Assembly (NCBI RefSeq): GCF_023015695.1
Contig: NZ_JALKAS010000001.1
Span: forward strand, 744,001-808,000
DNA from: Jannaschia sp. S6380
Lineage (GTDB): Bacteria; Pseudomonadota; Alphaproteobacteria; Rhodobacterales; Rhodobacteraceae
DNA length: 64,000 bases
Reading direction: 5' to 3'
Shown: positions 4,918 through 21,880 of the stretch, one piece after another
How the letters are laid out: every line of letters begins with the position of its first letter
Numbering within the stretch: position 1 is the first letter of the stretch
Notes under the pieces: generated by a model
Databases searched by the model: none
The model's input: the letters and a program-made list of their open reading frames with translations, nothing else
Told to the model about the DNA's origin: nothing
Program-made: the position numbers and the translations under genes

Positions 4918-6219
4918 TCAGTTGCGCTCCGCCAGAACTGCGCGTCGGATTGCTATACTGTCTCCGTTCTCGTCGGGCTGGGTCCAGGCCAGATAGACTT
5001 CCCGGCCTAACCGCGCCATACGCGGGAAATTCACTGACGCACCTGCCGAGTTGATGGTCAGGATTTCCGGTGAAATGCATCCCGCGTCATGATGGACCTT
5101 GCAAAGATAGAGCGCTTCATTCCCTTCAACCCATTCGACCCAACTTGTCAGGGCCGTCCCATCATCGAGCAGTTCAAGATCGACCCGCCCGACTGGATTG
5201 CCTTGGTCAATCCGGACCGGTGTATCGAAGTCGCGCCCGCCATTGTCAGAGAAAGCAACTTTGACAGCAGCAACGTCATTGGCACCCGTGAACCAGGCGA
5301 CGGCTGCATTCCCGCCCTCGGCGTCGATGGCCGGACCGTTCACGGGACAGCCCGACAATTCCCATCCATCATCGTGGACCGAAACAGGTGTTTCCCATCC
5401 CTTTTCGGTCAGTCGTGCCACCGAGATGTCCCGGATCTCCCCCTCGGTACGGTCGCGATAGGCGGCAAGGATTGTGCCATCACCCGTCGCTGCGAGGCTA
5501 GTCTGGCAGCACGAACAGGTCTGCAAGTCGATGGCGACGTCATCGCCGAGCATACCTTCGCTTGTCAGCATGGTCGCGCGCAGTTGCATGGCGTCCGGCG
5601 CGGTAAGTGCCTTATCACCCTCTGCACCATAGGCGCGCCCATCCAGCCAGATCACGGCCAAGCTGCTCTGGCCCGCAGACCACATCGACGCGAACCCGTG
5701 CTGCGCAAATGACCGGTCGTCATGCGGGATCAGGGGTTGCCCCCAGGTCGTGCCGCCATCATGCGACAGAGAGATCTCAACCTGGTAGTCAAAACTCGAT
5801 GGACCGATTTCCCGAAGCCAGTGCACGGCAATCGTTCCGTCTTCGAATACGGCAATTCCGGGAAAATCGGCCCAGTTGACGAAGAGATCGTCTCCCTGTT
5901 GCACAAGACGCGGAACGGACCAACCCTCGCCCGTCCGGACTGCCATCATGACTCTGGTCTCTGGCCCCACCTGCTCCATCCAGCTCATGTAGAGCGTATC
6001 CTCATGGTCAGTCAGTGACGGCTCATGGGCACCCGGAGGCGAAGGTGCGGGCACATCCTCGATCTGTTCAAAGAGCGTCGAACTCATCTGTGCGGCGACC
6101 GGATGCGGCGTCATTGCCAGAATCGCGGCACTAAGTACGGCGATCAGTCCGAAACAAACCGGTCCATGGCGCCACCAGTTCGGCCACGCGCGTTTTCGTA
6201 TGTCAGCACCACACTTCAT
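4918..6219 (-). CDS. Secreted BNR/sialidase-fold beta-propeller protein
   Basis: A 433-residue protein with a long n-region and an export signal (about 17-43). Beta-propeller repeats follow, including an Asp-box SHDGGTTW at 152-159 and a weaker FSDNGGRDF. A Cys cluster TCSCCQT (Cys235, 237, 238) is unusual for a sialidase and could bind copper. Automated pipelines would call it an exo-alpha-sialidase, but no sialic acid genes are nearby. It heads a minus-strand operon with a two-component system, so I infer a periplasmic metal- or stress-related role. The ATG at 6219 is chosen; a TTG at 6273 is possible but would add an unneeded extension. Confidence 0.7.
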   Translation of the reverse strand: MKCGADIRKRAWPNWWRHGPVCFGLIAVLSAAILAMTPHPVAAQMSSTLFEQIEDVPAPSPPGAHEPSLTDHEDTLYMSWMEQVGPETRVMMAVRTGEGWSVPRLVQQGDDLFVNWADFPGIAVFEDGTIAVHWLREIGPSSFDYQVEISLSHDGGTTWGQPLIPHDDRSFAQHGFASMWSAGQSSLAVIWLDGRAYGAEGDKALTAPDAMQLRATMLTSEGMLGDDVAIDLQTCSCCQTSLAATGDGTILAAYRDRTEGEIRDISVARLTEKGWETPVSVHDDGWELSGCPVNGPAIDAEGGNAAVAWFTGANDVAAVKVAFSDNGGRDFDTPVRIDQGNPVGRVDLELLDDGTALTSWVEWVEGNEALYLCKVHHDAGCISPEILTINSAGASVNFPRMARLGREVYLAWTQPDENGDSIAIRRAVLAERN

Positions 6220-6297
6220 AAGGCCCAGAATAGTTTGGTTTTTCCCGAATGACCCGAACTTCCTTTGTCGCAAAATGTATCAAGCGCCACGGAGGCC

Positions 6298-6328
6298 TTG
6301 ACCTTCCAGTCACTGGAAGCCCTAGGTC
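6298..6328 (+). promoter_or_regulatory. CueR-type MerR-family promoter and operator
   Basis: A -35 TTGACC at 6298-6303 and a -10 TAGGTC at 6323-6328 are separated by 19 bases, the over-long spacer that MerR-family activators need. The spacer holds the dyad CTTCCAGT-C-ACTGGAAG (6303-6319), close to known CueR operators. Expected transcription start is near 6335. No cueR-type gene is in the window. Confidence 0.8.
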
Positions 6329-6335
6329 ATGTGTC

Positions 6336-6788
6336 ATGAAGCGTGAGATTCAAAACACCACCGACCGTGTTGTCGGATCCCAGAACACCGCCCCTGTTCA
6401 TCGGCCAGCATGGGTCGGAGCAGGCCTGTTCGGGATAACCGCACCATTGCATCTTTTCCTCGAGCCGAATGCGTCCGTCGCTGTCGCCGCAATTACACTT
6501 GCACTGATTGGCGGAGCGTATATCGGTTTCGGCGCGGCGGATGGCAAAGCCCGTGTGTTCTGGTCCGAACTGGCGGTCGCCATTCTTTTCGGGACAGCTG
6601 CCGTATTGGGGATGCTCTGGCATTGGCTCGCCCTGCCGCTTGGCCTTGCGCTTCATGCTCTCTGGGACCTGCTCCACCACAAGCCGAACAAACTTGCGCG
6701 AATCCCCGGATGGTACATCCCGCTTTGCGTTGTCTACGACCTGCTGGCGGCGTCCTTCTTGATCCTGCTCTACGGAGTATGGATGTGA
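6336..6788 (+). CDS. Multi-pass membrane protein of unknown function, copper-inducible promoter
   Basis: A 150-residue protein with about four to five hydrophobic helices between residues 28 and 150 and His-rich loops (LWHWLALPLGLALHALWDLLHH). I do not recognise the family with certainty. The ATG at 6336 follows a MerR-type -10 element by only seven bases, so the message is probably leaderless. Longer in-frame starts (from 6249) would lie upstream of or inside the promoter. It is the first gene of a rightward operon with a TVP38-like protein, a CDF-like protein and a DUF411 protein, overlapping the second gene by 10 bases. A copper-related membrane role is inferred from this. Confidence 0.6.
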   Translation: MKREIQNTTDRVVGSQNTAPVHRPAWVGAGLFGITAPLHLFLEPNASVAVAAITLALIGGAYIGFGAADGKARVFWSELAVAILFGTAAVLGMLWHWLALPLGLALHALWDLLHHKPNKLARIPGWYIPLCVVYDLLAASFLILLYGVWM

Positions 6789-7444
6789 CCCGTCTCATTC
6801 TTCTCGTTCTTCTTGTGCTCCTGATTATCGCGTTGGCTTGGCGCGATGCATTCGGCTTCGACATCGATCTTCCACAACGCGAGGAACTCCAACGATGGAT
6901 TGATGCCGCAGGCCTCCTCGGACCTGTTTTGGTGGTCGCCCTCATGACAGTGGCAATCGTTGCCAGCCCCCTGCCCTCTGCGCCCGTCGCACTCGCCGCC
7001 GGGGCCGCTTACGGACACACATTTGGGACGATGTTGGTTGTCCTCGGAGCCGAGCTCGGCGCCGTAGCGGCATTCTTGCTAGCGCGCAGACTAGGGCGAC
7101 CTTTTGTTGAGAGACATGTCGGACAGAAGCTGAGTGAGGGATTTCTTGGCTCGCAGAACACGCTGACGTTTCTGGTATTCGGCAGCCGTCTGCTGCCGTT
7201 CCTGTCCTTCGACATGATTAGCTATGCGGCGGGCCTTAGTAAATTGCACTTCTGGCGATTTGCTCTCGCCACTCTGGCAGGAATCATACCGGCGAGTTTT
7301 CTGCTCGCGCATCTCGGCAGCGAAGCGATGAACGGAGATGCGCGCACCGCGACTTGGACGGCGGTTGCTCTTGGCGGCTTCACGGCTCTGTCGCTCGTCT
7401 TCGCCATCTGGCGCGACCGTCACAACGCACGAAAGGAGGGCTGA
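6779..7444 (+). CDS. TVP38/TMEM64-family (VTT/DedA-like) membrane protein
   Basis: A 221-residue integral membrane protein with a first helix at about 5-22 and a VTT/SNARE-associated core. The signatures are the glycine-rich AAGAAYGHTFGT stretch, ARRLGRPF, and FGSRLLPFLSFDMISYAAGLS. The family is linked to lipid movement across membranes and is often found with mercury- or copper-resistance genes in proteobacteria. The ATG lies inside the end of the preceding gene (10-base overlap). A CDF gene follows one base after its stop. The transported molecule cannot be read from the sequence. Confidence 0.82.
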   Translation: MDVTRLILLVLLVLLIIALAWRDAFGFDIDLPQREELQRWIDAAGLLGPVLVVALMTVAIVASPLPSAPVALAAGAAYGHTFGTMLVVLGAELGAVAAFLLARRLGRPFVERHVGQKLSEGFLGSQNTLTFLVFGSRLLPFLSFDMISYAAGLSKLHFWRFALATLAGIIPASFLLAHLGSEAMNGDARTATWTAVALGGFTALSLVFAIWRDRHNARKEG

Positions 7445-7445
7445 C

Positions 7446-8429
7446 ATGGCTGCCCAATCACACGCCGGGCATATGCCCACATCCGGTAAAGCCCTCGTTA
7501 TCTCCGCCTGGTTGACAGGCGTCTACTTCGTCATCGAACTCGCTGTCGGTCTCTGGACTGGATCGATTGCGGTGCTTTCCGATGCTTTCCACACGCTCTC
7601 AGCAGTAGGAGGCGTCTTGGTCGCGATCATTGCACAACGTATCGCGCAACGGCCTGCCGACGCGCAACGCAGTTTTGGCTGGTACCGTGCCGAGATCATC
7701 GGCGCGCTGGTCAATGGCGGCTTCCTGCTCGGCATGGCGCTTCTTGTCATTTGGATGGGCGTGATGCGGCTCGGCAATCCGATCCATCTGCCAACCGGCC
7801 CCATGCTCTGGGTAGCGTTCGGCGGATTGGTCACAGAGATCATCTCGCTTGGCCTGATGTGGAAATCGAGTCGCGATGATTTGAACGCGCGCGGCGCGCT
7901 TTGGCACATCATCCAGACCTTCGTCGGCAGCCTTCTGATCATCGTGACTGCCCTGGTGATCCAGTTCACCGGCTTTCTTCAAATCGACCCGATCCTTGGG
8001 GCCGTATTCGGGGTCGTTCTGCTCTGGGCCTCGATCGGCGTCATTCGCGAAGCCGTACACATCCTCATGGAGGGGACACCAGAGGAGACGGACCTCGATG
8101 CAGTGATCGACGATCTCCGTGATCAGGACGGTGTCCTCGATGTCCATCATGCACATGCCTGGACACTGACAAGCGGCAAACACGCTTTTTCCGCGCATTT
8201 GCGCCATACCGATCCGGCCGAAGCCGCCGGGATTCTCGAAAACGCGTACAGTCGGCTGACGCGCGACCACGGCTTCCATATGGTGACCCTGCAACTTGAG
8301 ACCGACTGCCTCGACGAACGACATGCTCAAGATCTTGATGTGACGCGCGACACGATCGGCAGCACGCTCGACATGGACGAGCACCCCGCTACAACTGGTG
8401 ATAAAACAAAAGGGAGCCACCACCATTGA
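7446..8429 (+). CDS. CDF-family transporter with a substituted metal site
   Basis: A 327-residue protein with the six-helix cation diffusion facilitator fold and a C-terminal cytoplasmic domain (HVHH-like DVHHAHAW region), ending in a His-rich tail. Canonical CDF exporters use H/D-x3-D in TM2 and H-x3-D in TM5. Here TM2 is H49-TLS-A53 and TM5 is H154-IIQ-T158, so both transport-site aspartates are missing; the canonical CDF at 12129-13058 has H49/D53 and H154/D158. Either the metal specificity has changed or this copy does not transport. It sits behind a CueR-type promoter and overlaps the DUF411 gene by four bases. Confidence 0.85.
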   Translation: MAAQSHAGHMPTSGKALVISAWLTGVYFVIELAVGLWTGSIAVLSDAFHTLSAVGGVLVAIIAQRIAQRPADAQRSFGWYRAEIIGALVNGGFLLGMALLVIWMGVMRLGNPIHLPTGPMLWVAFGGLVTEIISLGLMWKSSRDDLNARGALWHIIQTFVGSLLIIVTALVIQFTGFLQIDPILGAVFGVVLLWASIGVIREAVHILMEGTPEETDLDAVIDDLRDQDGVLDVHHAHAWTLTSGKHAFSAHLRHTDPAEAAGILENAYSRLTRDHGFHMVTLQLETDCLDERHAQDLDVTRDTIGSTLDMDEHPATTGDKTKGSHHH

Positions 8430-8875
8430 AACGACGAATTTTTCTGATTTCCACGGCTTCTACAGTCCTGGCACGTCCACTGTGGGCAAACACCTCTCCA
8501 GTTATCCAGGTGCTGAAGACACCGACATGCGGCTGTTGCACGGCATGGGTGGAGCACGTCCGACAAGCCGGATTCGCGGTCGAGGCGGAAAACGTTGATC
8601 AGGACGCGCTTTACGCATTCAAAGACAGGCTGCAAATCACGCCTGAGTTCGCCGGATGCCATACTGCAATTGTGGGTGACTATTTCATTGAAGGCCATGT
8701 GCCTGCCTCGGACATCGAACGCCTTCTAGCTGAGCGGCCCTCGGCGCGCGGCCTGGCCGTACCCGGCATGCCGATGAGCTCGCCTGGAATGGGCGGGCCC
8801 GGCGCAGGAGATACCTTTGACACGCTGCTTGTGGGCTCGGACGGATCAACCTCCGTTTTTGCCAGCCACAGTTAG
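8426..8875 (+). CDS. DUF411 metal-binding periplasmic protein
   Basis: A 149-residue protein with an RR-containing signal (residues 1-21). The DUF411 signature TPTCGCCTAW (Cys35, 37, 38) is followed by AGCHTA and by EGHVP and PGMPMSSPGM motifs. DUF411 proteins are thioredoxin-like and repeatedly found in copper and silver resistance clusters. The start is TTG at 8426, overlapping the CDF stop (TTGA), with an AGGGAG ribosome site at 8411-8416. The gene's last four bases overlap the end of the convergent Crp/Fnr gene. A second DUF411 copy lies at 15279-15773. Confidence 0.85.
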   Translation: MKRRIFLISTASTVLARPLWANTSPVIQVLKTPTCGCCTAWVEHVRQAGFAVEAENVDQDALYAFKDRLQITPEFAGCHTAIVGDYFIEGHVPASDIERLLAERPSARGLAVPGMPMSSPGMGGPGAGDTFDTLLVGSDGSTSVFASHS

Positions 8876-9444
8876 AAAGCCCCCGGTAAGCGATAAATGC
8901 CGCGGGACGGGTTTGTGACACGTCCTGCCTCAACGAGCGCCCGAAGCGCGCGATACGTCGCCTCGTGGCTCAGGCGCAAGAGCGCTGCGAAATCGATAAC
9001 TTGACCATCGAGCAGTCCGGCGACAAGCCCGGCCATTACACGCTCTTCCGCGCTTCGAATGCCGACGATTTCGAGAAGCTGTCGCTGCGCTTGTATCTGT
9101 CGGGCAGCCTGACGACCATAGGCGCGCGCGAACTCAACATCTCCAAACGCTCCTAGGACAGCGGTTTTGTCGATCCTCATGAACTCACCCGCTTCGATTA
9201 CAAGAGCGTCGCAGTGGTAGTGTTCCGAGAATATCGAGGCCTCGGCGAAACTCGTCCCAGCCTTTGCGCGATGGATCACGAAACGCTCGCCATTCGGCCC
9301 AACCCGCTCAAGATGCACGCTCCCGGTTAGTACGATGTACAGTCCCGTCGTCTCGGCGCCTTGCCGAAAGAGCGTTTCGCGAGCGTCGGCGGAGAAGAGT
9401 TTCTGCGCGGATTTTGGAAGGCGGGCGTAGGGATCAGGCATCAT
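8872..9444 (-). CDS. Crp/Fnr-family regulator, module 1
   Basis: A 190-residue regulator with an N-terminal cyclic-nucleotide-binding-like barrel (about 15-110), a dimer helix and a C-terminal winged helix (about 145-190, LLRLSHEATYRALRALVEAG). It lacks the N-terminal Cys cluster of FNR. The barrel carries FAEAS...YHCDA with His77-Cys78, a motif shared with the second copy at 13629-14159. The start codon (ATG at 9444, or 9441) lies in or beside a 20-base palindrome with no Shine-Dalgarno in front, suggesting autoregulation and possibly a leaderless message. Its divergent neighbour is a secreted protein. Confidence 0.85.
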   Translation of the reverse strand: MMPDPYARLPKSAQKLFSADARETLFRQGAETTGLYIVLTGSVHLERVGPNGERFVIHRAKAGTSFAEASIFSEHYHCDALVIEAGEFMRIDKTAVLGAFGDVEFARAYGRQAARQIQAQRQLLEIVGIRSAEERVMAGLVAGLLDGQVIDFAALLRLSHEATYRALRALVEAGRVTNPSRGIYRLPGAF

Positions 9445-9461
9445 ATGATTGAAATCATATG
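9442..9461. promoter_or_regulatory. Palindromic Crp/Fnr operator, module 1
   Basis: A perfect inverted repeat CATATGAT-TGAA-ATCATATG. Its core ATGAT-N4-ATCAT (9445-9458) matches the spacing of FNR-type boxes (TTGAT-N4-ATCAA) and recurs at 14158-14171. The regulator's start codon is within it, and the divergent gene begins about 60 bases away. Confidence 0.75.
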
Positions 9462-9518
9462 CGGAGATACGCGCTCTTGCTAGAGCTTGCCGAAATCATC
9501 TTCGCGAAGGATCAGCCC

Positions 9519-10043
9519 ATGCGTTTTCCCATTTTGGTATTCTCCCTTTTGGTTGCAGCCCCTGCGTTCGCTCAACACAGCCACTCAGGAAACGTCCGCA
9601 TGATGGCCGGGCCACAGGAGGCCGGCCAATCCGGTTTTGCCGCCCTGACCGAAATCGTGACGATCCTCAGAGACGACCCGGAAACCGACTGGAGCACGGT
9701 CGATATAGCCGCTCTCCGTCGACACCTAGTTGACATGGACTTGCTGACCACGGAGTCCAAGGTCGATGTCATACAACGCCCCGAAGGAGCCAGGTTCGAG
9801 ATACGGGGAACTCAGCGTGTTCTTGAGGCCATCCGCGCCATGGTGCCGACCCACGCACCTTTCCTCGCTGCGGAGACGGGTTGGGATGTCTCAACCGAAG
9901 AACTTGAAGACGGCGTGGCCCTGATCGCCGATGGCGACGCTGCACAAATCCAGGGTCTGGGCTTCTTCGGAGTGATGACGATCGGGGCGCATCACCAGGA
10001 ACATCATCTGATGTTGGCAAAGGGTGCCGCACCTCATCGATAG
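9519..10043 (+). CDS. Secreted HLVDMD-motif protein, module 1 (unknown family)
   Basis: A 174-residue protein with a clear signal peptide (1-18, ending AFA). A mature region starting with His residues (QHSHSG) follows. It shares with the protein at 14228-14806 the blocks TDWSTVD/TDWSQVD, HLVDMD (69-74), AMVP(T/A)HA, GLGFFG (146-151) and a C-terminal HHxxHHLM (158-165). The His and Met clusters suggest metal binding in the periplasm. I cannot assign a named family. The ATG at 9519 is preceded by GAAGGA at 9506-9511; an earlier in-frame ATG at 9459 lies in the palindrome and is less likely. The divergent Crp/Fnr gene is the probable regulator. Confidence 0.7.
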   Translation: MRFPILVFSLLVAAPAFAQHSHSGNVRMMAGPQEAGQSGFAALTEIVTILRDDPETDWSTVDIAALRRHLVDMDLLTTESKVDVIQRPEGARFEIRGTQRVLEAIRAMVPTHAPFLAAETGWDVSTEELEDGVALIADGDAAQIQGLGFFGVMTIGAHHQEHHLMLAKGAAPHR

Positions 10044-10661
10044 AAAACGAGGTCGAATAGATCGCGCGGGTGACTATGCCATTAGCCTTTGCGCTGCCCC
10101 TAGGGAATTTGCCACAACGTGTTGCGAGGGAGTTTCTGATTGAACGGAATTGCAGATACTCGAAACGTACCCGACGTAGTGCGACAGAGCCCGAACGCAA
10201 CATGAACATAAGCTGCACACACCACCACGTAAGCTACTGAAATCACGCCATAATCGCCACCATCCATCATCGGCGCAGTAGACAATCGCGCTGCCGCGTA
10301 GGCTGCGTTGTTGGGCATTCAAAGCTCTCCTCGGGTCCGCCATCACTTGGGACGGACCTGCTCTGCACACCATACGCACACGAGAGACATGCCGCCACCC
10401 TGCCCCGTAGAACGACAGGGTTTCGGCGGCTCTTGGGCGGGTCAGGCTCCTATCCCGCGTATGACGACCGTTCCGGTCGCGTTCCAAACTTGGGTGATCT
10501 TTGTCGCCGACCTGCCCGGGAACGGTCGTTCGTGAAACTTGCCGCAAATGACGGCTGTGAGCCCAACGCAACCGATGCTGCAAAATGTACGAATGTCAGC
10601 TTTCAAAGCATAATCGACGCAGTGGTGCCATCTGCGATGACGCATAATTATGCTGTCCTGG
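10044..10661. other. Intergenic stretch, no convincing gene apart from a dispersed repeat
   Basis: About 620 bases between the HLVDMD gene and the HMA-CDF gene. Open frames here are short, overlap on both strands and have no family signature. The only structure I can support is the repeat copy at 10172-10298, which matches 23699-23825. Confidence 0.6.
10172..10298 (-). repeat. Dispersed repeat, copy A (possible small coding unit)
   Basis: This stretch aligns with 23699-23825 at roughly 65-70% identity by eye, with a few small gaps. On the minus strand both copies read an APMMDGGD peptide followed by IS and CAAxVHV in the same frame. Several differences fall in third codon positions. It may be a decayed small-protein gene or a dispersed intergenic element. 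Confidence 0.55.
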
Positions 10662-11531
10662 CTACAGCGGTCGGCTATTTCTTGATGCCAACTGCTCTCG
10701 CAAATCAGCTCGCGCGTCGCGAATAATGGCCCAGGACGAGTGCAGGAACAGCGCCGCGATCCCGAAAGCGACGACCAAGTCCGGCCAGGCGCTGCCGGAC
10801 CACGCGACAAGCCCGGCCGCGATCACGACGGCAAGGTTGCCGATGGCGTCGTTGCGCGAGAACAGCCAGACCGCCCGCATGTTGGCGTCTCCCTTCCGGT
10901 GCTTCAGAAGCGGCAGGACGGCGAGGATATTGACGATCAGCGCACCCACGGCGAAGGCACCCATCAGCCCCGCCTCGGGCGTGGCCTGATTCAGGACGCG
11001 CCAGAGAGTGCTGGCAACGACACCGAGACCCAGAAGGCCAAGGAACACGCCCTGGATCATGGCGGATCGGGCACGCCACGTCAGGCTCCAGCCGATGGCG
11101 AGCAGGCCGAGAAACGTGATCGCCCCGTCGCCGAGGAAATCGAGGGCATCCGCCTTCAGCGCCTGCGAGCCGGACAGAAACCCACCCGCCATTTCCACGA
11201 CGCCATAGCCGAGGTTGAGCACCACCACGATCCAGAGCGCCCGGCGATAGGACGGGTCCTTGTAGGCCGGATCGGTCGAGGTGTCGTCGCCCTCGATCCG
11301 CTCGAAGCCGTATCCTGTCGCTTCCAGTGCTGGGCGCAGCTTCGGAAGATCGCCTTCCGCGATGCGCAGCGTCATGATGTGGGTTGCAGACGAGACCTTG
11401 ACGTCTTCCGCCGCGACGCCCGCCGACCGCGCGGCACGTTCGATCTCGGCCGCATCCTTCGCGCAATCCGTCCCGTGCACCCGCATCCGGATAGGGGTGT
11501 TCTGATCGCCGGTCTTTTCTCGCTTTGTCAT
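10662..11531 (-). CDS. HMA-domain cation transporter, CDF superfamily
   Basis: A 289-residue protein. A ferredoxin-like heavy-metal-associated domain at about 14-75 keeps only one Cys (GTDCAKDA). A six-helix CDF-type membrane domain follows, with KADALDFLGDG in TM2 and FSRNDAIGNLAV in TM5. These acidic sites resemble the cation transporter branch found beside czcD-like genes. The ATG at 11531 is chosen because the longer frame runs into the methyltransferase gene. It is the last gene of the CDF/methyltransferase operon, 13 bases after the previous stop. The probable substrate is Zn, Cd or Co, inferred from the regulator at 13188. Confidence 0.8.
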   Translation of the reverse strand: MTKREKTGDQNTPIRMRVHGTDCAKDAAEIERAARSAGVAAEDVKVSSATHIMTLRIAEGDLPKLRPALEATGYGFERIEGDDTSTDPAYKDPSYRRALWIVVVLNLGYGVVEMAGGFLSGSQALKADALDFLGDGAITFLGLLAIGWSLTWRARSAMIQGVFLGLLGLGVVASTLWRVLNQATPEAGLMGAFAVGALIVNILAVLPLLKHRKGDANMRAVWLFSRNDAIGNLAVVIAAGLVAWSGSAWPDLVVAFGIAALFLHSSWAIIRDARADLREQLASRNSRPL

Positions 11532-11544
11532 CTCGAAAATTCTC

Positions 11545-12132
11545 TCAACGTGAAGGAACGCCCCATCCCGGCCAGCCCAAGAACCGTGGAACGCGATTGC
11601 GGTAACATCGATAGGCTTCGCCATAGACATCTTCCAGCCACGGCTCTTCGGCGAACGGGGCAAGAGCCAGCGCCGCAAAACCGCCCGCCGCGATGATCCA
11701 GGCCGATGGCGATGCGGATAGAACGGCCCATCCGATCAGAATGCCCATGTCGGCGAGGTATTGCGGGTTGCGGCTGTAGCGATAGAGGCCGTCCGTCTTC
11801 AGGTGACTGCGCGCCCCGCTCGTCGCATCCATGTCGATGCCGAAAACCGCGCGCCACACAATCAGATTTCCGGCCAGAATGAGAGGCAACCCAACGCCGA
11901 ACCGTAGCCAGCCGGGCCAGTCGAGCGCATTCCATTCGATAATGCCCACGAGGGATGCAGCCGCAAAAATTGCGACGGTCGGAGACCAGATCTTGATCTG
12001 TGTGAACGGGGTGACTCGACCAGTCGGCCAGAGACGGCGCGATGGAAAAAAGATCGACCAGACAAGCACCGCACCGAGAAACGTTGCGCTGATGAGCGCT
12101 AGGAAAGTCACCGACGCCACGAAAGCGCTCAC
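11545..12132 (-). CDS. Isoprenylcysteine methyltransferase-like membrane protein
   Basis: A 195-residue protein with four to five hydrophobic helices. The signature of the ICMT/PEMT-like family is near the C-terminus: GLYRYSRNPQY, then EEPWLEDVYGEAYRCY. Bacterial members are poorly understood membrane methyltransferases and are often encoded beside metal efflux genes. The GTG at 12132 overlaps the CDF stop (GTGA), so it is translated with the upstream exporter. A much longer frame to 12480 reads through the CDF gene and is rejected. The methylated substrate is unknown. Confidence 0.78.
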   Translation of the reverse strand: MSAFVASVTFLALISATFLGAVLVWSIFFPSRRLWPTGRVTPFTQIKIWSPTVAIFAAASLVGIIEWNALDWPGWLRFGVGLPLILAGNLIVWRAVFGIDMDATSGARSHLKTDGLYRYSRNPQYLADMGILIGWAVLSASPSAWIIAAGGFAALALAPFAEEPWLEDVYGEAYRCYRNRVPRFLGWPGWGVPSR

Positions 12133-13058
12133 GTCGCCGCCCCACCGTGCCCGCGCCCGCCGAATTCGGACGGTGCATCGCAGGCGTGTCGCGCGCATTC
12201 CAGCTCCAGCGTGGTGTGCTCGATGTCGAACCTGTCGGAAAGGACGGCTTTGATCCGTTCCTTGATCGCGTCGGCATCGTTCCAGCGTCCCTCCTCGATC
12301 ACGACATGGGCGTCGAGCGCCGCGTGATGCTCGTTCATCTGCCAGAAATGCGCGTGGTGGATGCCCGTGACGCCGGGCACATTGCGCACAGCGTCGAGAA
12401 CGCCGCGCGTCTCGATGTCGGGCGGCGATCCAAGCATCAGGATGCGGATGACTGGGCCGATTTCCCGGAAGGATTGCCACAGGATGTAGCCCGCGATCAT
12501 GACCGTCACGATGGGGTCGATCAGTCGCCAGTCGTAGAGCAGGATCAGCGTGCCCGCGACAATCACGGCAATCGAGCCGAGCGCGTCAGCGACATTGTGC
12601 AGGAACGCTGCACGGATGTTCACGCTGGATTTGGACATCGTGTAGGTCAGCAGCGCCGTTGCCGCGTCCACGACCAGAGCGATGCCCGCGATGATGACGA
12701 TCAGCCATCCCTCGACGTCCTGCGGGTCTGCGAACCGCATCGCCGCCTCGTAGAGCAGGTAGAGGCCGATCACGATCAGCGTCGTGTAGTTGATGAGCGC
12801 GGCGACCACCTCGACCCGGCCGTAGCCGAACGTCATGTCTTCATCTCTCGGCCGTCGCGCGATCTTGCGGGCAGCGAAGGCGATGATGAGCGAGATCGCG
12901 TCGGAGAAGTTGTGCAGCGCATCGGCGATCAGCGCGAGCGAGCCGGAGACGATCCCGCCGACAATCTGCGCGACGGTCAGCCCGAGATTGACGGCAATCG
13001 CCGCAAACACCCGGCGGTCGCCCGCCTCCGGGTCAATGTGAACGTGGTCATGCGGCAT
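12129..13058 (-). CDS. CDF-family divalent metal exporter (CzcD/ZitB type)
   Basis: A 309-residue six-helix transporter with an N-terminal His segment (MPHDHVH). The complete transport site is H49-NFS-D53 in TM2 and H154-NVA-D158 in TM5, and a C-terminal domain carries HHAHF and HVVIEE motifs. This family exports Zn, Cd or Co against protons. Start ATG 13058 is preferred over 13109 because it has AAGGTG ahead and matches family length. It is the first gene of a three-gene operon read from a 19-base-spacer promoter beside the MerR-type gene. Confidence 0.9.
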   Translation of the reverse strand: MPHDHVHIDPEAGDRRVFAAIAVNLGLTVAQIVGGIVSGSLALIADALHNFSDAISLIIAFAARKIARRPRDEDMTFGYGRVEVVAALINYTTLIVIGLYLLYEAAMRFADPQDVEGWLIVIIAGIALVVDAATALLTYTMSKSSVNIRAAFLHNVADALGSIAVIVAGTLILLYDWRLIDPIVTVMIAGYILWQSFREIGPVIRILMLGSPPDIETRGVLDAVRNVPGVTGIHHAHFWQMNEHHAALDAHVVIEEGRWNDADAIKERIKAVLSDRFDIEHTTLELECARHACDAPSEFGGRGHGGAAT

Positions 13059-13145
13059 TCGCTGCACCTTGCCTAGAATATTTGGCCCGACATCGGGGCG
13101 GAAAAACACGAGTCATTGCAAGCCTCTGGATTCGTTGCTGCCGAC

Positions 13146-13176
13146 AAGATAGGGTCTCTAGTCACTAGAGGTTCAA
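13146..13176 (-). promoter_or_regulatory. MerR-type (CadR/PbrR-like) promoter of the CDF operon
   Basis: On the minus strand, a -35 TTGAAC (13171-13176) and a -10 TATCTT (13146-13151) are spaced by 19 bases. Between them is a perfect 7-1-7 palindrome, CTCTAGT-C-ACTAGAG (13156-13170), close to published PbrR/CadR operator cores. The adjacent MerR-family gene starts 12 bases beyond, so one site probably serves both directions. Confidence 0.82.
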
Positions 13177-13187
13177 GAGGTAATCCC

Positions 13188-13604
13188 ATGCTGTCGATTG
13201 GCGAGCTTTCCAGACGCACCAGGGTCAAGGTTCCGACCATCCGCTACTACGAGACTGTCGGCCTGCTGACCGCACCCGAGCGCACCGGAGGCAATCAAAG
13301 ACGATACGATCAGGCAGGCCTGGAGCGGTTGAGCTTCATCAGGCACGCACGGGACCTCGGTTTCTCGATTGAAGCGATCTCGTCGCTGATCGAGCTTCAG
13401 GATCACCCCGACCGGTCCTGCCAGGCGGCGACCGAGATCGCCGCCGCCCAGCTCTCGGATGTCCGGGCGAAGATCAAACGGCTCCGCGCGCTGGAGAAGG
13501 AGCTTCTGCGCATCGCCGATGGGTGTGACGGCGATGGCGTCTCGGAAGACTGCTATGTGCTGGCGTCCCTCGCCGACCACGACCTGTGCCAGCGGGAGCA
13601 TTGA
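13188..13604 (+). CDS. MerR-family metal regulator, Zn/Cd/Pb type
   Basis: A 138-residue regulator. The MerR winged helix begins MLSIGELSRRT and continues VPTIRYYETVGLL; a dimerisation helix and a C-terminal metal loop follow. The sensor Cys pattern is one Cys before the long helix (RSCQAA) plus C-x8-C in the loop (GCDGDGVSEDC), with a further His and Cys near the end. That pattern matches Cd/Pb/Zn sensors (CadR, PbrR) better than CueR, which lacks the first Cys and has C-x7-C. The ATG at 13188 follows its operator. It probably activates the divergent CDF operon. Confidence 0.87.
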   Translation: MLSIGELSRRTRVKVPTIRYYETVGLLTAPERTGGNQRRYDQAGLERLSFIRHARDLGFSIEAISSLIELQDHPDRSCQAATEIAAAQLSDVRAKIKRLRALEKELLRIADGCDGDGVSEDCYVLASLADHDLCQREH

Positions 13605-13628
13605 TCGGTTAGAACCTCTATGCCTCCG

Positions 13629-14159
13629 TCATTGTTCTTTACGGCTCCGTCGCCGTGCCAACTCTCGGTAAAGTGCGGGTGGCGAAACTCCGATCTGATT
13701 GGCAACCTCGGTCCAGCGGCCCTTCCGCGGCTCGCCGTGAAGGTCCAACCATGCGTCCAGCCTGTCTGCCACACGGCGCAGGCGCAGTGTCTCGATCCGC
13801 GCCCTCTGCGCCTGAACCTCTTTCGCGTGGGTTTCGACAAGGCTTAGGGCGGCATCCGGCTCACTCCGTAGCGCCGTGAGAAATTCCACCCTCGGCAAGT
13901 TGGCAATCGAGGCCTCCGATCTTGCAACCGCATCGCAGTGATAGGTCGCGGCAAAAAGGGAGGCTTCGGCCAACGCGGTGCCTGGCGTGGCAACATGCAG
14001 CGTCAGCGGTGTTCCGTCTTCCAGCGGGCGTTCCAGGGCGACAGCTCCTGCTCGGACCAGGAACATGGATCGGACCGCCTCTTCGCGCCGGAATAGATAC
14101 GCGCCCGACTCGATCTCGCGGACAGGCGCGCCGTCAAAGATATGTATCCAGCCCGACAT
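13629..14159 (-). CDS. Crp/Fnr-family regulator, module 2
   Basis: A 176-residue paralogue of the regulator at 8872-9444, with an effector barrel and a C-terminal helix-turn-helix (TEVANQIGVSPPALYRELARR). It has the same LAEAS...YHCDA block (His74-Cys75) and no FNR Cys cluster. The start MSGWIHIF (ATG 14159) is taken; an ATG at 14171 adds four residues. Both lie inside the palindrome at 14158-14171, and there is no Shine-Dalgarno. It faces the second HLVDMD gene, reproducing the arrangement of module 1. The signal sensed is unknown; copper or redox is inferred from the neighbourhood. Confidence 0.85.
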   Translation of the reverse strand: MSGWIHIFDGAPVREIESGAYLFRREEAVRSMFLVRAGAVALERPLEDGTPLTLHVATPGTALAEASLFAATYHCDAVARSEASIANLPRVEFLTALRSEPDAALSLVETHAKEVQAQRARIETLRLRRVADRLDAWLDLHGEPRKGRWTEVANQIGVSPPALYRELARRRSRKEQ

Positions 14160-14171
14160 GATAGATATCAT
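14158..14171. promoter_or_regulatory. Palindromic Crp/Fnr operator, module 2
   Basis: ATGAT-AGAT-ATCAT, the same half-sites and spacing as the site at 9445-9458. Outer bases GACAT and ATGTC (14155-14159 and 14172-14176) are also mirrored. It covers the start codon of the Crp/Fnr gene and lies 57 bases before the divergent gene. Confidence 0.72.
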
Positions 14172-14227
14172 ATGTCCGTTGTTCTGCTTTGGGTAGGGTG
14201 AGGCAACTCTGTGGATGGAGGTCGGGT

Positions 14228-14806
14228 ATGCAAATGAAGGTCATTCTGGGGGTGGCGATCCTGATCGGTGGAGCGGTTTTTGCGGTGGCGCAAACCGATC
14301 ATTCCGGCCATGGCGACGGTATGAACCACGCAGCACACAGTCAGGCAGGCGGATCGGCCCTGACCGAGCCTGGCCAAGACGCATTCGCCGCACTGTCCGA
14401 AGTCGTCGCCCTTCTGGAAGCCGATCCCGCGACGGACTGGTCACAGGTCGATCTTCGTGGCCTGCGCGATCATCTGGTCGACATGGACCGGCTGGTGAGC
14501 TTCACCGAAGTGGAAGAGGAGCCTGTCGATGGCGGTCTGCGCATGATCGTGACCGGTGATGCACAAACACTGGCGACATTGCGGCGGATGGTTCCTGCCC
14601 ATGCGGGCCAACTTGCCAACGATCCCCGCTGGACAGTCGATGTGACGGAGAGCAGGTCGGCGGTTGAGCTGGTCGTCACCAGCGATGATCCAGCGGTTAC
14701 GGCAAGGATAGGGGGACTCGGGTTCTTCGGCTTGATGGCAAGCCAGGATCATCATCGCGCGCATCACCTGATGATGGCGCGCGGGGAAGATGCGCACGCC
14801 CACTGA
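14228..14806 (+). CDS. Secreted HLVDMD-motif protein, module 2 (unknown family)
   Basis: A 192-residue paralogue of the protein at 9519-10043. A signal peptide (1-21) is followed by a His/Met-rich start (DHSGHGDGMNHAAHS). Shared blocks are FAALSEVV, TDWSQVD, HLVDMD (82-87), RMVPAHA, GLGFFG (163-168) and HHRAHHLMMARG (175-186), and the protein ends HAH. The likely role is periplasmic metal (copper) binding; no known family is recognised. The ATG at 14228 follows GGAGG at 14217-14221. It is divergent from the second Crp/Fnr gene and upstream of the DUF411/CopC/CopD/oxidase operon. Confidence 0.72.
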   Translation: MQMKVILGVAILIGGAVFAVAQTDHSGHGDGMNHAAHSQAGGSALTEPGQDAFAALSEVVALLEADPATDWSQVDLRGLRDHLVDMDRLVSFTEVEEEPVDGGLRMIVTGDAQTLATLRRMVPAHAGQLANDPRWTVDVTESRSAVELVVTSDDPAVTARIGGLGFFGLMASQDHHRAHHLMMARGEDAHAH

Positions 14807-14847
14807 GCCGCGACAGGATGTATCGCAGCTCCGGCTTGCAAATGCCC

Positions 14848-14868
14848 ATATACCCCATATAGGTATTT
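14848..14868. promoter_or_regulatory. CsoR-type operator 1
   Basis: The 21 bases here match the CsoR box at 21141-21161 in 19 positions (core ATACCCCATAT). It overlaps the expected -10 region behind a TTGCAA -35 at 14836-14841. It ends four bases before the ATG of the 104-residue protein, so CsoR binding should block this promoter. Confidence 0.75.
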
Positions 14869-14871
14869 GGT

Positions 14872-15186
14872 ATGGTTTTGTTCCGGCTTCTCCTTGTCGT
14901 CATGGTAACGCTCTCCGCTTCGGTTTCGGGCGCGATGAACGCTAGCCATATGGCTGCTGTGGAGCATAGCCACACCTCGGTGGGAGAAGTGGCTGACGAT
15001 CAGCCGATCTGCTGTTCGGAAGGCTCCGAACGCACGCAGACCTGTCACTCCTTGGCCGCGCTGCTTCCCGGCGCTGATTTGAACGATACTGCGCCCGCCA
15101 CCTGTGAGGACGTGTCCATTGTCACGGGCGTGCTTCTGACGGGTATCGAGCCTTCCGGTCCTCTCGACCCTCCCCGCGCGTTGTGA
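14872..15186 (+). CDS. Small secreted Cys/His protein under a CsoR box
   Basis: A 104-residue protein with a signal peptide (about 1-21). A mature part follows with candidate copper ligands: His26, His32, His34, vicinal Cys47-Cys48, Cys58-His59 and Cys78. No named family is recognised. The start codon lies four bases after a CsoR-type operator that overlaps the -10 region, so the transcript is likely leaderless or has a leader of a few bases. It is the first gene before the second DUF411 gene, with a 92-base gap. A periplasmic copper-scavenging role is an inference. Confidence 0.65.
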   Translation: MVLFRLLLVVMVTLSASVSGAMNASHMAAVEHSHTSVGEVADDQPICCSEGSERTQTCHSLAALLPGADLNDTAPATCEDVSIVTGVLLTGIEPSGPLDPPRAL

Positions 15187-15278
15187 TGCGTTTCGTGCCC
15201 TTTCGGGCGCGGAGTCTCAACTTGCAACCACACCTGAGCGGGCCTTGCCCGTGCGCATTCCTGTCGAGAGGAACTGAC

Positions 15279-15773
15279 ATGAAACCTATCAAGACTCTTA
15301 TCGCTTTCACCCCTGCCGCCGCCCTTGCACTTGGCCTCGCCTCTTTCGGTGCGGTCGGGATGGCGCATGCCGACGGCCATTCCGCCATGGCCGATCACGG
15401 CACGATGCACGTAACCAAAAGCCCAACATGCGGCTGCTGCGGCGCGTGGGTCACCCTGGCCCGCGAAGAGGGATACGACATCGAGGCCACGGACATCGCC
15501 GATGTCACCGGCGTCAAGCTGGACAACGAGGTGCCCGCAACGATGTGGGCCTGCCATACCGCGACGATCGACGGCTATGTGGTCGAGGGTCACGTGCCGT
15601 TCGCGGCTCTTGCCAAGCTGCTGGAAGAGCGTCCGGACATCGCGGGGATCGCGGTGCCGGGAATGCCCGGCGGCTCCCCCGGCATGGGAAACGACCCGGC
15701 AGCGCGATATGACGTGATGGCGTTCGGCGGCGAGGCCGGTGACGGCGAGGTCTTCTACAAGGCCGGTCTGTGA
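15279..15773 (+). CDS. DUF411 metal-binding periplasmic protein, second copy
   Basis: A 164-residue protein with a signal peptide (about 1-31) and a His-rich linker. The DUF411 signature SPTCGCCGAW has Cys51, 53 and 54. WACHTATIDGYVVEGHVP and PGMPGGSPGM motifs follow. It is a paralogue of the protein at 8426-8875, with the same order of motifs. GAGAGGAA at 15265-15272 supports the ATG at 15279. The stop overlaps the GTG of the cytochrome gene (GTGA). DUF411 proteins accompany copper and silver resistance determinants; here it leads the CopC/CopD/oxidase genes. Confidence 0.86.
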   Translation: MKPIKTLIAFTPAAALALGLASFGAVGMAHADGHSAMADHGTMHVTKSPTCGCCGAWVTLAREEGYDIEATDIADVTGVKLDNEVPATMWACHTATIDGYVVEGHVPFAALAKLLEERPDIAGIAVPGMPGGSPGMGNDPAARYDVMAFGGEAGDGEVFYKAGL

Positions 15774-20819: not shown

Positions 20820-21092
20820 TTAGCGGGACGCCTTTTGCAACAGACCGATCAGCTCGTCGAACTTGGCCCGCTGTTCTTCGGGGTCGCCGCTCTGGATCGC
20901 GGTTTCGACGCAATGCTCCGCGTGGTTCTCAAGGATCAGCTTCTCGACGCCCAGGATCGCCGATCTGATCGCAGCCGTCTGCGCAAGGATGTCCATGCAG
21001 TAGCGGTCGGCCTCGACCATGCCCTTTATGCCGCGCACCTGACCTTCGAGCCGTGACAGCCGGTCCAGCGTCTTGTCCTTGTTCGCCTTCAT
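20820..21092 (-). CDS. csoR: CsoR-family copper-responsive repressor
   Basis: A 90-residue four-helix repressor with the DUF156/CsoR signature RLEGQVRGIKGMVE. The metal triad C-H-C is visible: Cys in ADRYCMDILAQ, then H-x3-C in ENHAEHCVE. That matches Cu(I)-binding CsoR rather than RcnR or FrmR. Start ATG 21092 (MKANKDKT) fits family length; upstream in-frame ATGs at 21122 and 21182 fall near or across the operator. It is divergent from the DUF305 gene, with a CsoR box at 21140-21162 between them and a second at 14848-14868, so autoregulation is likely. Confidence 0.88.
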   Translation of the reverse strand: MKANKDKTLDRLSRLEGQVRGIKGMVEADRYCMDILAQTAAIRSAILGVEKLILENHAEHCVETAIQSGDPEEQRAKFDELIGLLQKASR

Positions 21093-21139
21093 CGGACTGC
21101 ACTCCGTGTCTTTTGGAACCATGGGGCTGAAATTACAGT

Positions 21140-21162
21140 TATATACCCCATATGGGTATATA
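21140..21162. promoter_or_regulatory. CsoR-type operator 2, divergent promoter
   Basis: A perfect 9-5-9 palindrome with arms TATATACCC and GGGTATATA around CATAT. For the rightward gene, TTACAG (21133-21138) and TATATA (21157-21162) could be -35 and -10 at 18-base spacing, so the box covers the core promoter. It is placed to control both csoR and the DUF305 gene. Confidence 0.82.
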
Positions 21163-21748: not shown

Positions 21749-21880
21749 ATGATGATGAATGGTGAAATGATGCAAGGCAGCGGATGGATGATGGGAGGCA
21801 TGATGCTGATCATGCTTCTTGTGGTCGTCTTCCTGATTACGGGAATTGCCTATTTCATTCGAAATTCCCGCGGACGCTGA
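21749..21880 (+). CDS. Met-rich 43-residue single-pass membrane peptide
   Basis: A frame of 43 codons beginning MMMNGEMMQGSGWMMGGMM, with ten methionines in the first 19 residues. One hydrophobic helix (about 20-37) and a basic end, RNSRGR, follow. ACAGGAGA at 21733-21740 is a good ribosome site. It lies between the DUF305 and glutaredoxin-like genes with the same orientation and spacing as a true operon member. The Met-rich N-terminus could bind Cu(I). It is too short for standard gene callers. Confidence 0.7.
   Translation: MMMNGEMMQGSGWMMGGMMLIMLLVVVFLITGIAYFIRNSRGR

Follow-up and report, generated by a model that had tools for sequence, protein, structure and literature searches.

A Crp/Fnr-type regulator and a secreted histidine- and methionine-bearing protein as a dedicated pair in Alphaproteobacteria: a probable one-target switch in copper surroundings

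We analyzed a 64,000-nucleotide stretch (hereafter the window) of the 3.5 Mb genome of Jannaschia sp. S6380 and found that the gene for a Crp/Fnr-type regulator (REG) and the gene for a secreted protein bearing histidine (His) and methionine (Met), here called SEC, form a real, widespread and dedicated regulator-target pair. A palindromic operator, ATGAT-N4-ATCAT, lies between them, and the arrangement most likely serves to activate, in the class II manner, a secreted metal protein whose gene is set among copper genes. Taken as a whole, a self-contained switch with a single target, in which REG is the class II activator of SEC and the pair is linked to copper, appears to be the probable explanation. 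The comparisons of sequences on which it is built concern the gene pair, its operator, the spacing of a -10 box, a start codon embedded in the operator, the co-divergence of the two proteins and the copper neighborhood; the module usually adjoins copper-resistance genes in marine and soil bacteria.

The regulator-target pair and its operator

The window contains two blocks, each with REG on the reverse strand, the palindrome and SEC on the forward strand (8872-10043 and 13629-14806), with a DUF411 gene near each of them, and the six genes open at or near the places assigned to them by an earlier note that was made from this DNA alone. Pairwise comparisons bore out its view that both blocks are real and homologous: SEC1 and SEC2 shared 40% identity over 185 columns (E 5e-38), REG1 and REG2 32% over 117 residues, and the two DUF411 proteins 41% over 92 columns. 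The palindromes that it had read in both intergenic regions were found at 9445-9458 and 14158-14171; a third site (21800-21813) is located within a short Met-rich reading frame, giving three sites in the window versus 0.11 expected from shuffles. SEC1 and SEC2 are the only SEC genes of the source genome, apart from one match at E 0.465, and REG1 and REG2 its only REG matches at E <= 0.01. The whole genome contains seven sites; the five outside the modules all fall inside reading frames, including a short Met-rich one.

SEC-type matches were detected in 50 of the 295 genomes of the family, 11 of the 385 of the class and 9 of the 398 of the phylum, as well as in 66 plasmid records, two viral contigs (viral_contigs) and at least 428 stretches of genome_contigs, where one gene may count twice. 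For four of the 50 family genomes, the sole match was a weak one to a long frame, which we attribute to chance; five places with such matches, in frames of 261-379 amino acids that presumably encode YcjF-type membrane proteins, were inspected and rejected. The hosts named among the plasmid and genome_contigs matches listed were nearly all Alphaproteobacteria, with two metagenome bins titled Thiotrichaceae and Phycisphaerae. Among the 80 best-scoring of the matching genome_contigs stretches, 73 had a divergent REG within 200 nt of SEC, in agreement with the expectation that SEC homologues stand beside a Crp/Fnr gene. REG was present in 24 of 29 non-redundant loci and in 25 of 29 family loci, and it lay upstream on the SEC strand in two Rhizobium plasmids and three other genomes. 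Both viral_contigs loci have REG beside SEC. Two loci carry damaged copies: in one (L006), SEC and the operator are intact and the adjoining REG is split across two reading frames, and in the D. shibae plasmid pDSHI03 an IS630 insertion (approximately 5938-6913 of locus L140) cuts SEC short while REG and DUF411 are annotated as whole.

The palindrome appeared to follow REG closely. After identical upstream regions had been removed, 84 distinct REG loci remained, of which 78 had the core TGAT-N4-ATCA upstream of SEC (shuffled mean 0.35) and 71 the full ATGAT-N4-ATCAT (shuffled 0), as the earlier note would have it, whereas only 2 of 11 loci without REG kept a site. The corresponding Fisher test (p 2e-7) is too sharp because its rows are not fully independent, the 11 including two near-identical pairs (L071/L072 and L105/L107). 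The latter pair, from bins titled Phycisphaerae and Nitratireductor, is the one that has an operator and no REG in the stretch compared, and perhaps represents one mis-binned organism. Two operator subtypes could be distinguished, CATATGAT..ATCATATG and GACATGAT..ATCATGTC. Eight further loci from other families, outside the training set, gave the same picture, with REG and operator together in five and neither of them in the stretch compared in three; including L183 (identical to L123), the site occurred in all six other-family loci with REG and in none of the three without it in that stretch. Across 875 kb of fetched loci, we counted 64 module sites and one other. With this single further operator, and none upstream of the copper operon of the window, control of the copper operon by REG was rejected.

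REG was also found without SEC. At E <= 1e-20, 19 of 149 family genomes had a REG match, and five of these 19 had no SEC match. In four of the five (L160-L163) the same palindrome is found at the REG start, facing a different secreted protein, and in the fifth (L164) no site was seen at REG. The partners in L160, L161 and L163 are alike; two of them were scanned and showed a weak resemblance to Metal_resist (26.9 and 20.2 bits; cut-off 29.2). The partner in L162 is His/Met-rich and has no family; profile comparison did not support the idea that it is a distant SEC, and searching 200 genomes with it yielded no matches, a negative of little weight. From these loci, REG would appear to be a portable controller whose targets are secreted metal-stress proteins.

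The two blocks had been described as a duplicated module, which turned out to be misleading. First, the highest identity of each copy was to a protein of another genome (SEC1, 82% to L018; SEC2, 75% to L004). Second, in a tree of SEC from 46 non-redundant loci, SEC2 belonged to a starred set with L004, L005 and L113, and the nearest relatives of SEC1 by path were L018, L034, L052 and L031; the REG tree grouped both copies in the same way. Third, the distance matrices of SEC and REG were correlated (r 0.68, n=46), the highest value of 999 permutations being 0.21. Both trees were made by a quick method, the REG branches are long, and the deep branches are therefore unsure. The closer relatives in other genomes and the paired trees argue that SEC and REG co-diverge as a pair and that the source genome holds two distant versions of it, and local duplication was ruled out by them.

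Promoter geometry and start codons

To describe the SEC promoter, we kept 40 of the 78 operator loci (less than 75% alike) and aligned them on the palindrome. Since the core TGAT-N4-ATCA is present in all 40 by construction, evidence comes solely from the outer bases and from the columns downstream of the site. The outer operator base was A in 36 loci, G in four and T in none, which differs from the FNR/Dnr box, TTGAT-N4-ATCAA (PMC5398030). Of the columns downstream of the palindrome, a single one was invariant, an A at +30 from its center (40/40), accompanied by T or C at +29 in 39 loci, G at +27 in 29, T at +34 in 24 and T at +26 in 19, and no conserved -35 element was observed in the 40 aligned promoters. 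The columns around +30 may be read as a -10 box that is often extended. If the box is taken as -12 to -7, transcription would start at +41 and the palindrome would be centered at -41.5, and REG would thus most likely be an activator of SEC. In E. coli, single activating FNR sites are described as most commonly class II, centered at about -41.5, and promoters with a weak -35 element as often having a TG-extended -10 box (PMC7349173). The alignment would match this class II geometry, namely a site near -41.5, a -10 box and a weak or missing -35 element, with the transcription start being a predicted one. The invariant A at +30 and the palindrome at about -41.5 of a promoter without -35, and hence the most likely role of REG as an activator, are what this analysis newly adds.

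The same A at +30 was present in all six operator-bearing loci from other families. L182, L183 and L185, in which REG and SEC share a strand with REG upstream, keep both the operator and the A at +30 before SEC, and thus the spacing serves SEC and not the REG start codon. This observation also bears on the reading of REG as a repressor of SEC that a metal or an oxidant releases from the palindrome, as in CsoR-type control. Such a repressor would be in keeping with a palindrome that overlaps the place of the -35 element and with a REG start inside the operator, and many metal regulators are repressors. On the other hand, there is no conserved -35 element, the -10 box lies at a fixed class II spacing that is maintained where REG is not divergent, and a promoter without -35 would be expected to need an activator, which makes repression distinctly unlikely.

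The inferred promoters also affected the choice of start codons. SEC1 most likely begins at 9519 and not at 9459, as had been assumed: the inferred transcription start (9493) lies downstream of 9459, and a ribosome-site-like stretch, AAGGA, precedes 9519. SEC2 most likely begins at 14228. The proposal that the REG start codon is embedded in the operator held up well: from 77 rows, seven of them without operator, 70 distinct operator loci remained, and 64 of these had an in-frame REG ATG inside the operator and six had none. In several loci an in-frame stop lies within the palindrome upstream of the REG ATG, so that translation of REG cannot begin earlier there. No ribosome site was seen within the palindrome upstream of the embedded ATG, and REG may have a leaderless or weak start. 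REG bound to the operator should also block its own expression.

The two proteins and their copper neighborhood

REG1 and REG2 both contain the cNMP-binding beta-roll domain (PF00027, above cut-off). The best profile match of REG in PDB was DNR (3dkw, E 4.6e-18), and the profile aligned with 4ev0 through the C-terminal part to residue 198, in line with a C-terminal helix-turn-helix, for which none of the Pfam models scored above cut-off with REG1 or REG2. In 30 diverse REG rows, the motif YHCDA was near-invariant (cysteine (Cys) and His in 29 each, the preceding E in 30), and the recognition helix showed E-x-x-Y-R (Y in 27, R in 30). Only one column contained Cys in at least 80% of these rows, so the four Cys of an FNR-type 4Fe-4S site are missing. 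YHCDA also stands in place of the Arg-Ser of CRP proteins that bind cyclic adenosine monophosphate (cAMP); in the DNR alignment, the REG Cys is two residues before a conserved Ala, which we take to be the position of the phosphate-binding Arg of E. coli CRP. One REG subtype, REG2 (13629-14159) and its relatives, ends right after the recognition helix, and its usual C-terminal wing seems to be missing although the operator is kept.

SEC1 and SEC2 matched no Pfam or NCBIfam model at cut-off, the only match below it being that of SEC1 to DUF2087 (E 0.043). This agrees with the suggestions that the module is undescribed and that SEC is not a member of a known non-metal family; in addition, SEC is annotated as hypothetical in the plasmid records examined, and none of the titles and abstracts listed in our searches of open-access literature dealt with the REG-SEC pair. 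The sequence of SEC2, the copy searched, had no match in PDB, and neither PDB nor the viral models offered a clear counterpart of the fold, a missing match not being equal to a new fold. The predicted order is helix-helix-(strand-strand-helix)-(strand-strand-helix)-helix, with the conserved His and Met on the helices. Residues H51, M55, M90, H94, H140, H141, H144 and H145 were identical in all 39 rows, forming HxxxM, MxxxH and HHxxHH, and no Cys was found in any of the 39 rows. Such a pattern suggests metal binding.

We then compared the surroundings of 29 non-redundant SEC loci with those of 20 controls, using the proteins of the window's own cluster as queries; the controls were fixed stretches of 11 SEC-bearing genomes on long contigs, in which plasmids are under-represented. 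Multicopper oxidases were the most frequent of the tested neighbors (16 loci), followed by cytochrome c (13), MerR (10), CopC, CopD and DUF411 (9 each) and CDF (8), whereas none of these families was found in the controls. At least one of multicopper oxidase, CopC, CopD, DUF411, CsoR and CDF was present in 24 of the 29 loci versus none of the 20 controls (p 2e-9), which supports the metal or copper setting that the earlier note had assumed. Response regulators, DUF305 and PEMT showed no difference between the 29 loci and the 20 controls. A Pfam scan of neighbor frames (243 of 284, from 25 of the 29 loci; L072, L096, L098 and L104 were left out here and are included in the above comparison) identified 14 multicopper oxidases, 6 CopD and 7 DUF411 proteins. 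In the window itself, copy 2 stands before genes for cytochrome c, CopC, CopD and two multicopper oxidases, and copy 1 is amid a two-component system, a VTT protein and a CDF transporter. The copper operon is headed by a small secreted-looking frame with His and Cys (14872-15186), for which Pfam and NCBIfam gave nothing at E <= 1e-5.

DUF411 had been thought to accompany each copy. This is true of both copies in the window; elsewhere the family was near SEC in only 36 of 80 loci and in 9 of the 29 non-redundant ones, and it was thus ruled out as a core part of the module. A DUF411-like protein of P. aeruginosa, PA4714, is described as responding to copper stress (PMC6444534). The features of the window are summarized in Table 1.

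Table 1. Features of the two REG-SEC blocks and of nearby genes in the window
Feature	Position	Strand	Remarks
DUF411a	8426..8875	+	Pfam DUF411, E 6.8e-27; optional neighbor of the module
REG1	8872..9444	-	Crp/Fnr-type, long form with a C-terminal stretch past the recognition helix; Pfam cNMP_binding 4.1e-16; YHCDA; start codon inside operator 1
Operator 1	9442..9461	no strand	CATATGAT-TGAA-ATCATATG, center 9451/9452
SEC1 -10 box (inferred, extended)	9478..9486	+	TG 9478-9479, TAGAGC 9481-9486; inferred transcription start 9493
SEC1	9519..10043	+	Secreted His/Met protein; no family model at cut-off
REG2	13629..14159	-	Crp/Fnr-type, short form ending just after the recognition helix; Pfam cNMP_binding 4.9e-15; alternative start possible at 14171
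Operator 2	14155..14174	no strand	GACATGAT-AGAT-ATCATATG, center 14164/14165
SEC2 -10 box (inferred)	14194..14199	+	TAGGGT, no TG before it; inferred transcription start 14206
SEC2	14228..14806	+	Secreted His/Met protein; no family model at cut-off
DUF411b	15279..15773	+	Pfam DUF411, E 1.5e-24; belongs to the adjoining copper operon
RicR/CsoR-like gene	20823-21095	-	Below the model's cut-off

A probable activator switch, its rivals and known systems

In the mechanism that we favor, REG would act as a homodimer of the Crp/Fnr type, independent of cAMP, and would bind the ATGAT-N4-ATCAT site at about -41.5 of the SEC promoter. Bound REG would replace the missing -35 element and recruit RNA polymerase to the (often extended) -10 box, i.e. 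class II activation, and the same binding event would cover the REG start codon and thereby limit REG synthesis. Copper, or thiol oxidation caused by copper, might switch REG on via the single conserved Cys of YHCDA, and exported SEC would bind or buffer periplasmic copper through three helices with HxxxM, MxxxH and HHxxHH. That REG binds the site, activates SEC and represses itself, what induces it and that SEC binds metal are predictions here, and copper is the presumed signal. It is also possible, albeit doubtful, that a Cys/His/Asp site of REG, having replaced the contact with the cAMP phosphate, senses copper or silver directly, that the single target SEC is a new periplasmic family of His/Met copper-buffering proteins with an unseen fold, and that the two, through a geometry in which one binding event both activates SEC and closes the REG start codon, constitute a minimal, portable metal switch spread by plasmids.

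Several observations weigh against an activator switch linked to copper. First, five of the 29 loci had none of the tested metal neighbors, three of which (L072, L099 and L108) were also without REG, and the strict palindrome core was absent in six of the 84 REG loci. Second, some plasmid modules are located by catabolic genes, by sulfur genes or, in one plasmid locus, with a DsrE gene beside REG and other metal genes further off. Third, the copper operon by SEC2 has its own CsoR-like palindrome (14850-14866) upstream of its CopC, CopD and multicopper oxidase genes, and thus SEC cannot be regarded as just another gene of this operon. A near-identical second palindrome (21143-21159) is found upstream of a DUF305 gene, both having the form ATACCCCATAT-N-GGTAT (0 expected by shuffles); together with the CsoR-like gene of the cluster, they indicate that copper control probably exists there without REG. 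Fourth, a lone conserved Cys is, to our knowledge, not by itself a usual Cu(I) site. Finally, D. shibae with and without its 102-kb plasmid is reported to have the same resistance to copper, cobalt and zinc, with a slight difference for silver (PMC9426580). A D. shibae plasmid record of 102,061 bp holds a SEC match and is, judging by its size, presumably the plasmid of that study; the strain without the 102-kb plasmid carries another SEC copy, disrupted by an insertion sequence.

Among the alternatives, it is rather unlikely that the pair answers zinc, silver or another metal instead of copper. The His-rich sites would suit zinc, CDF transporters occur in 8 of the 29 loci, and the slight silver effect between the D. 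shibae strains (PMC9426580) points the same way; however, the commonest tested neighbor was multicopper oxidase (16 of 29), with CopC and CopD in nine loci each. Met among His also fits Cu(I) or Ag(I) better than zinc. Somewhat less likely still is a switch that senses redox state or reactive sulfur species, with SEC as a redox- or sulfur-stress protein for which copper clusters are merely frequent company. The Cys of the pocket motif is conserved in 29 of 30 REG rows, cytochrome c was a neighbor in 13 of 29 loci, and sulfur genes stand beside some copies, but Cys is absent from all 39 SEC rows and multicopper oxidases were found near 16 of 29 loci versus none of 20 controls. Repression by REG, as discussed above for the promoter, ranks below both. 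That the palindrome, despite its resemblance to TTGAT-N4-ATCAA, is a chance match or an ordinary FNR/Dnr box and REG acts elsewhere is very improbable in view of its outer base (A in 36 and T in none of 40 loci) and of the site being mostly absent without REG.

SEC is present at no fewer than 80 loci, probably several hundred genes, and is served by a regulator, an operator and a promoter geometry of its own. If the activator switch linked to copper is true, the metal-responsive regulators would gain a Crp/Fnr branch with REG, and the periplasmic metal proteins of marine and soil Alphaproteobacteria a new class with SEC.

Comparison with known systems helps to place both proteins. REG shares with Crp/Fnr regulators of the Dnr/FnrL kind the cNMP-binding domain, the TGAT-N4-ATCA core and DNR 3dkw as best match, as well as class II spacing as described for FNR (PMC7349173). 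In contrast with them, it has no FNR cysteine set, YHCDA replaces the cAMP-binding motif, the outer operator base is A and not T, the target is only local as far as we searched, and one subtype ends after the recognition helix. CueR and CsoR are, like REG, local regulators in the same copper clusters, but they belong to different protein superfamilies and have different operators, and the window contains, apart from REG, one gene of the MerR type and one that is CsoR-like. On the side of the target, CopC, CusF and Spy/CpxP/ZraP-like proteins resemble SEC in being secreted, His/Met-bearing and beside metal genes, whereas SEC matches no Pfam family at cut-off. Metal_resist-like proteins (below cut-off) replace SEC behind the same operator in some REG loci, and DUF411 (PF04214), to which both window proteins belong, is a family separate from SEC.

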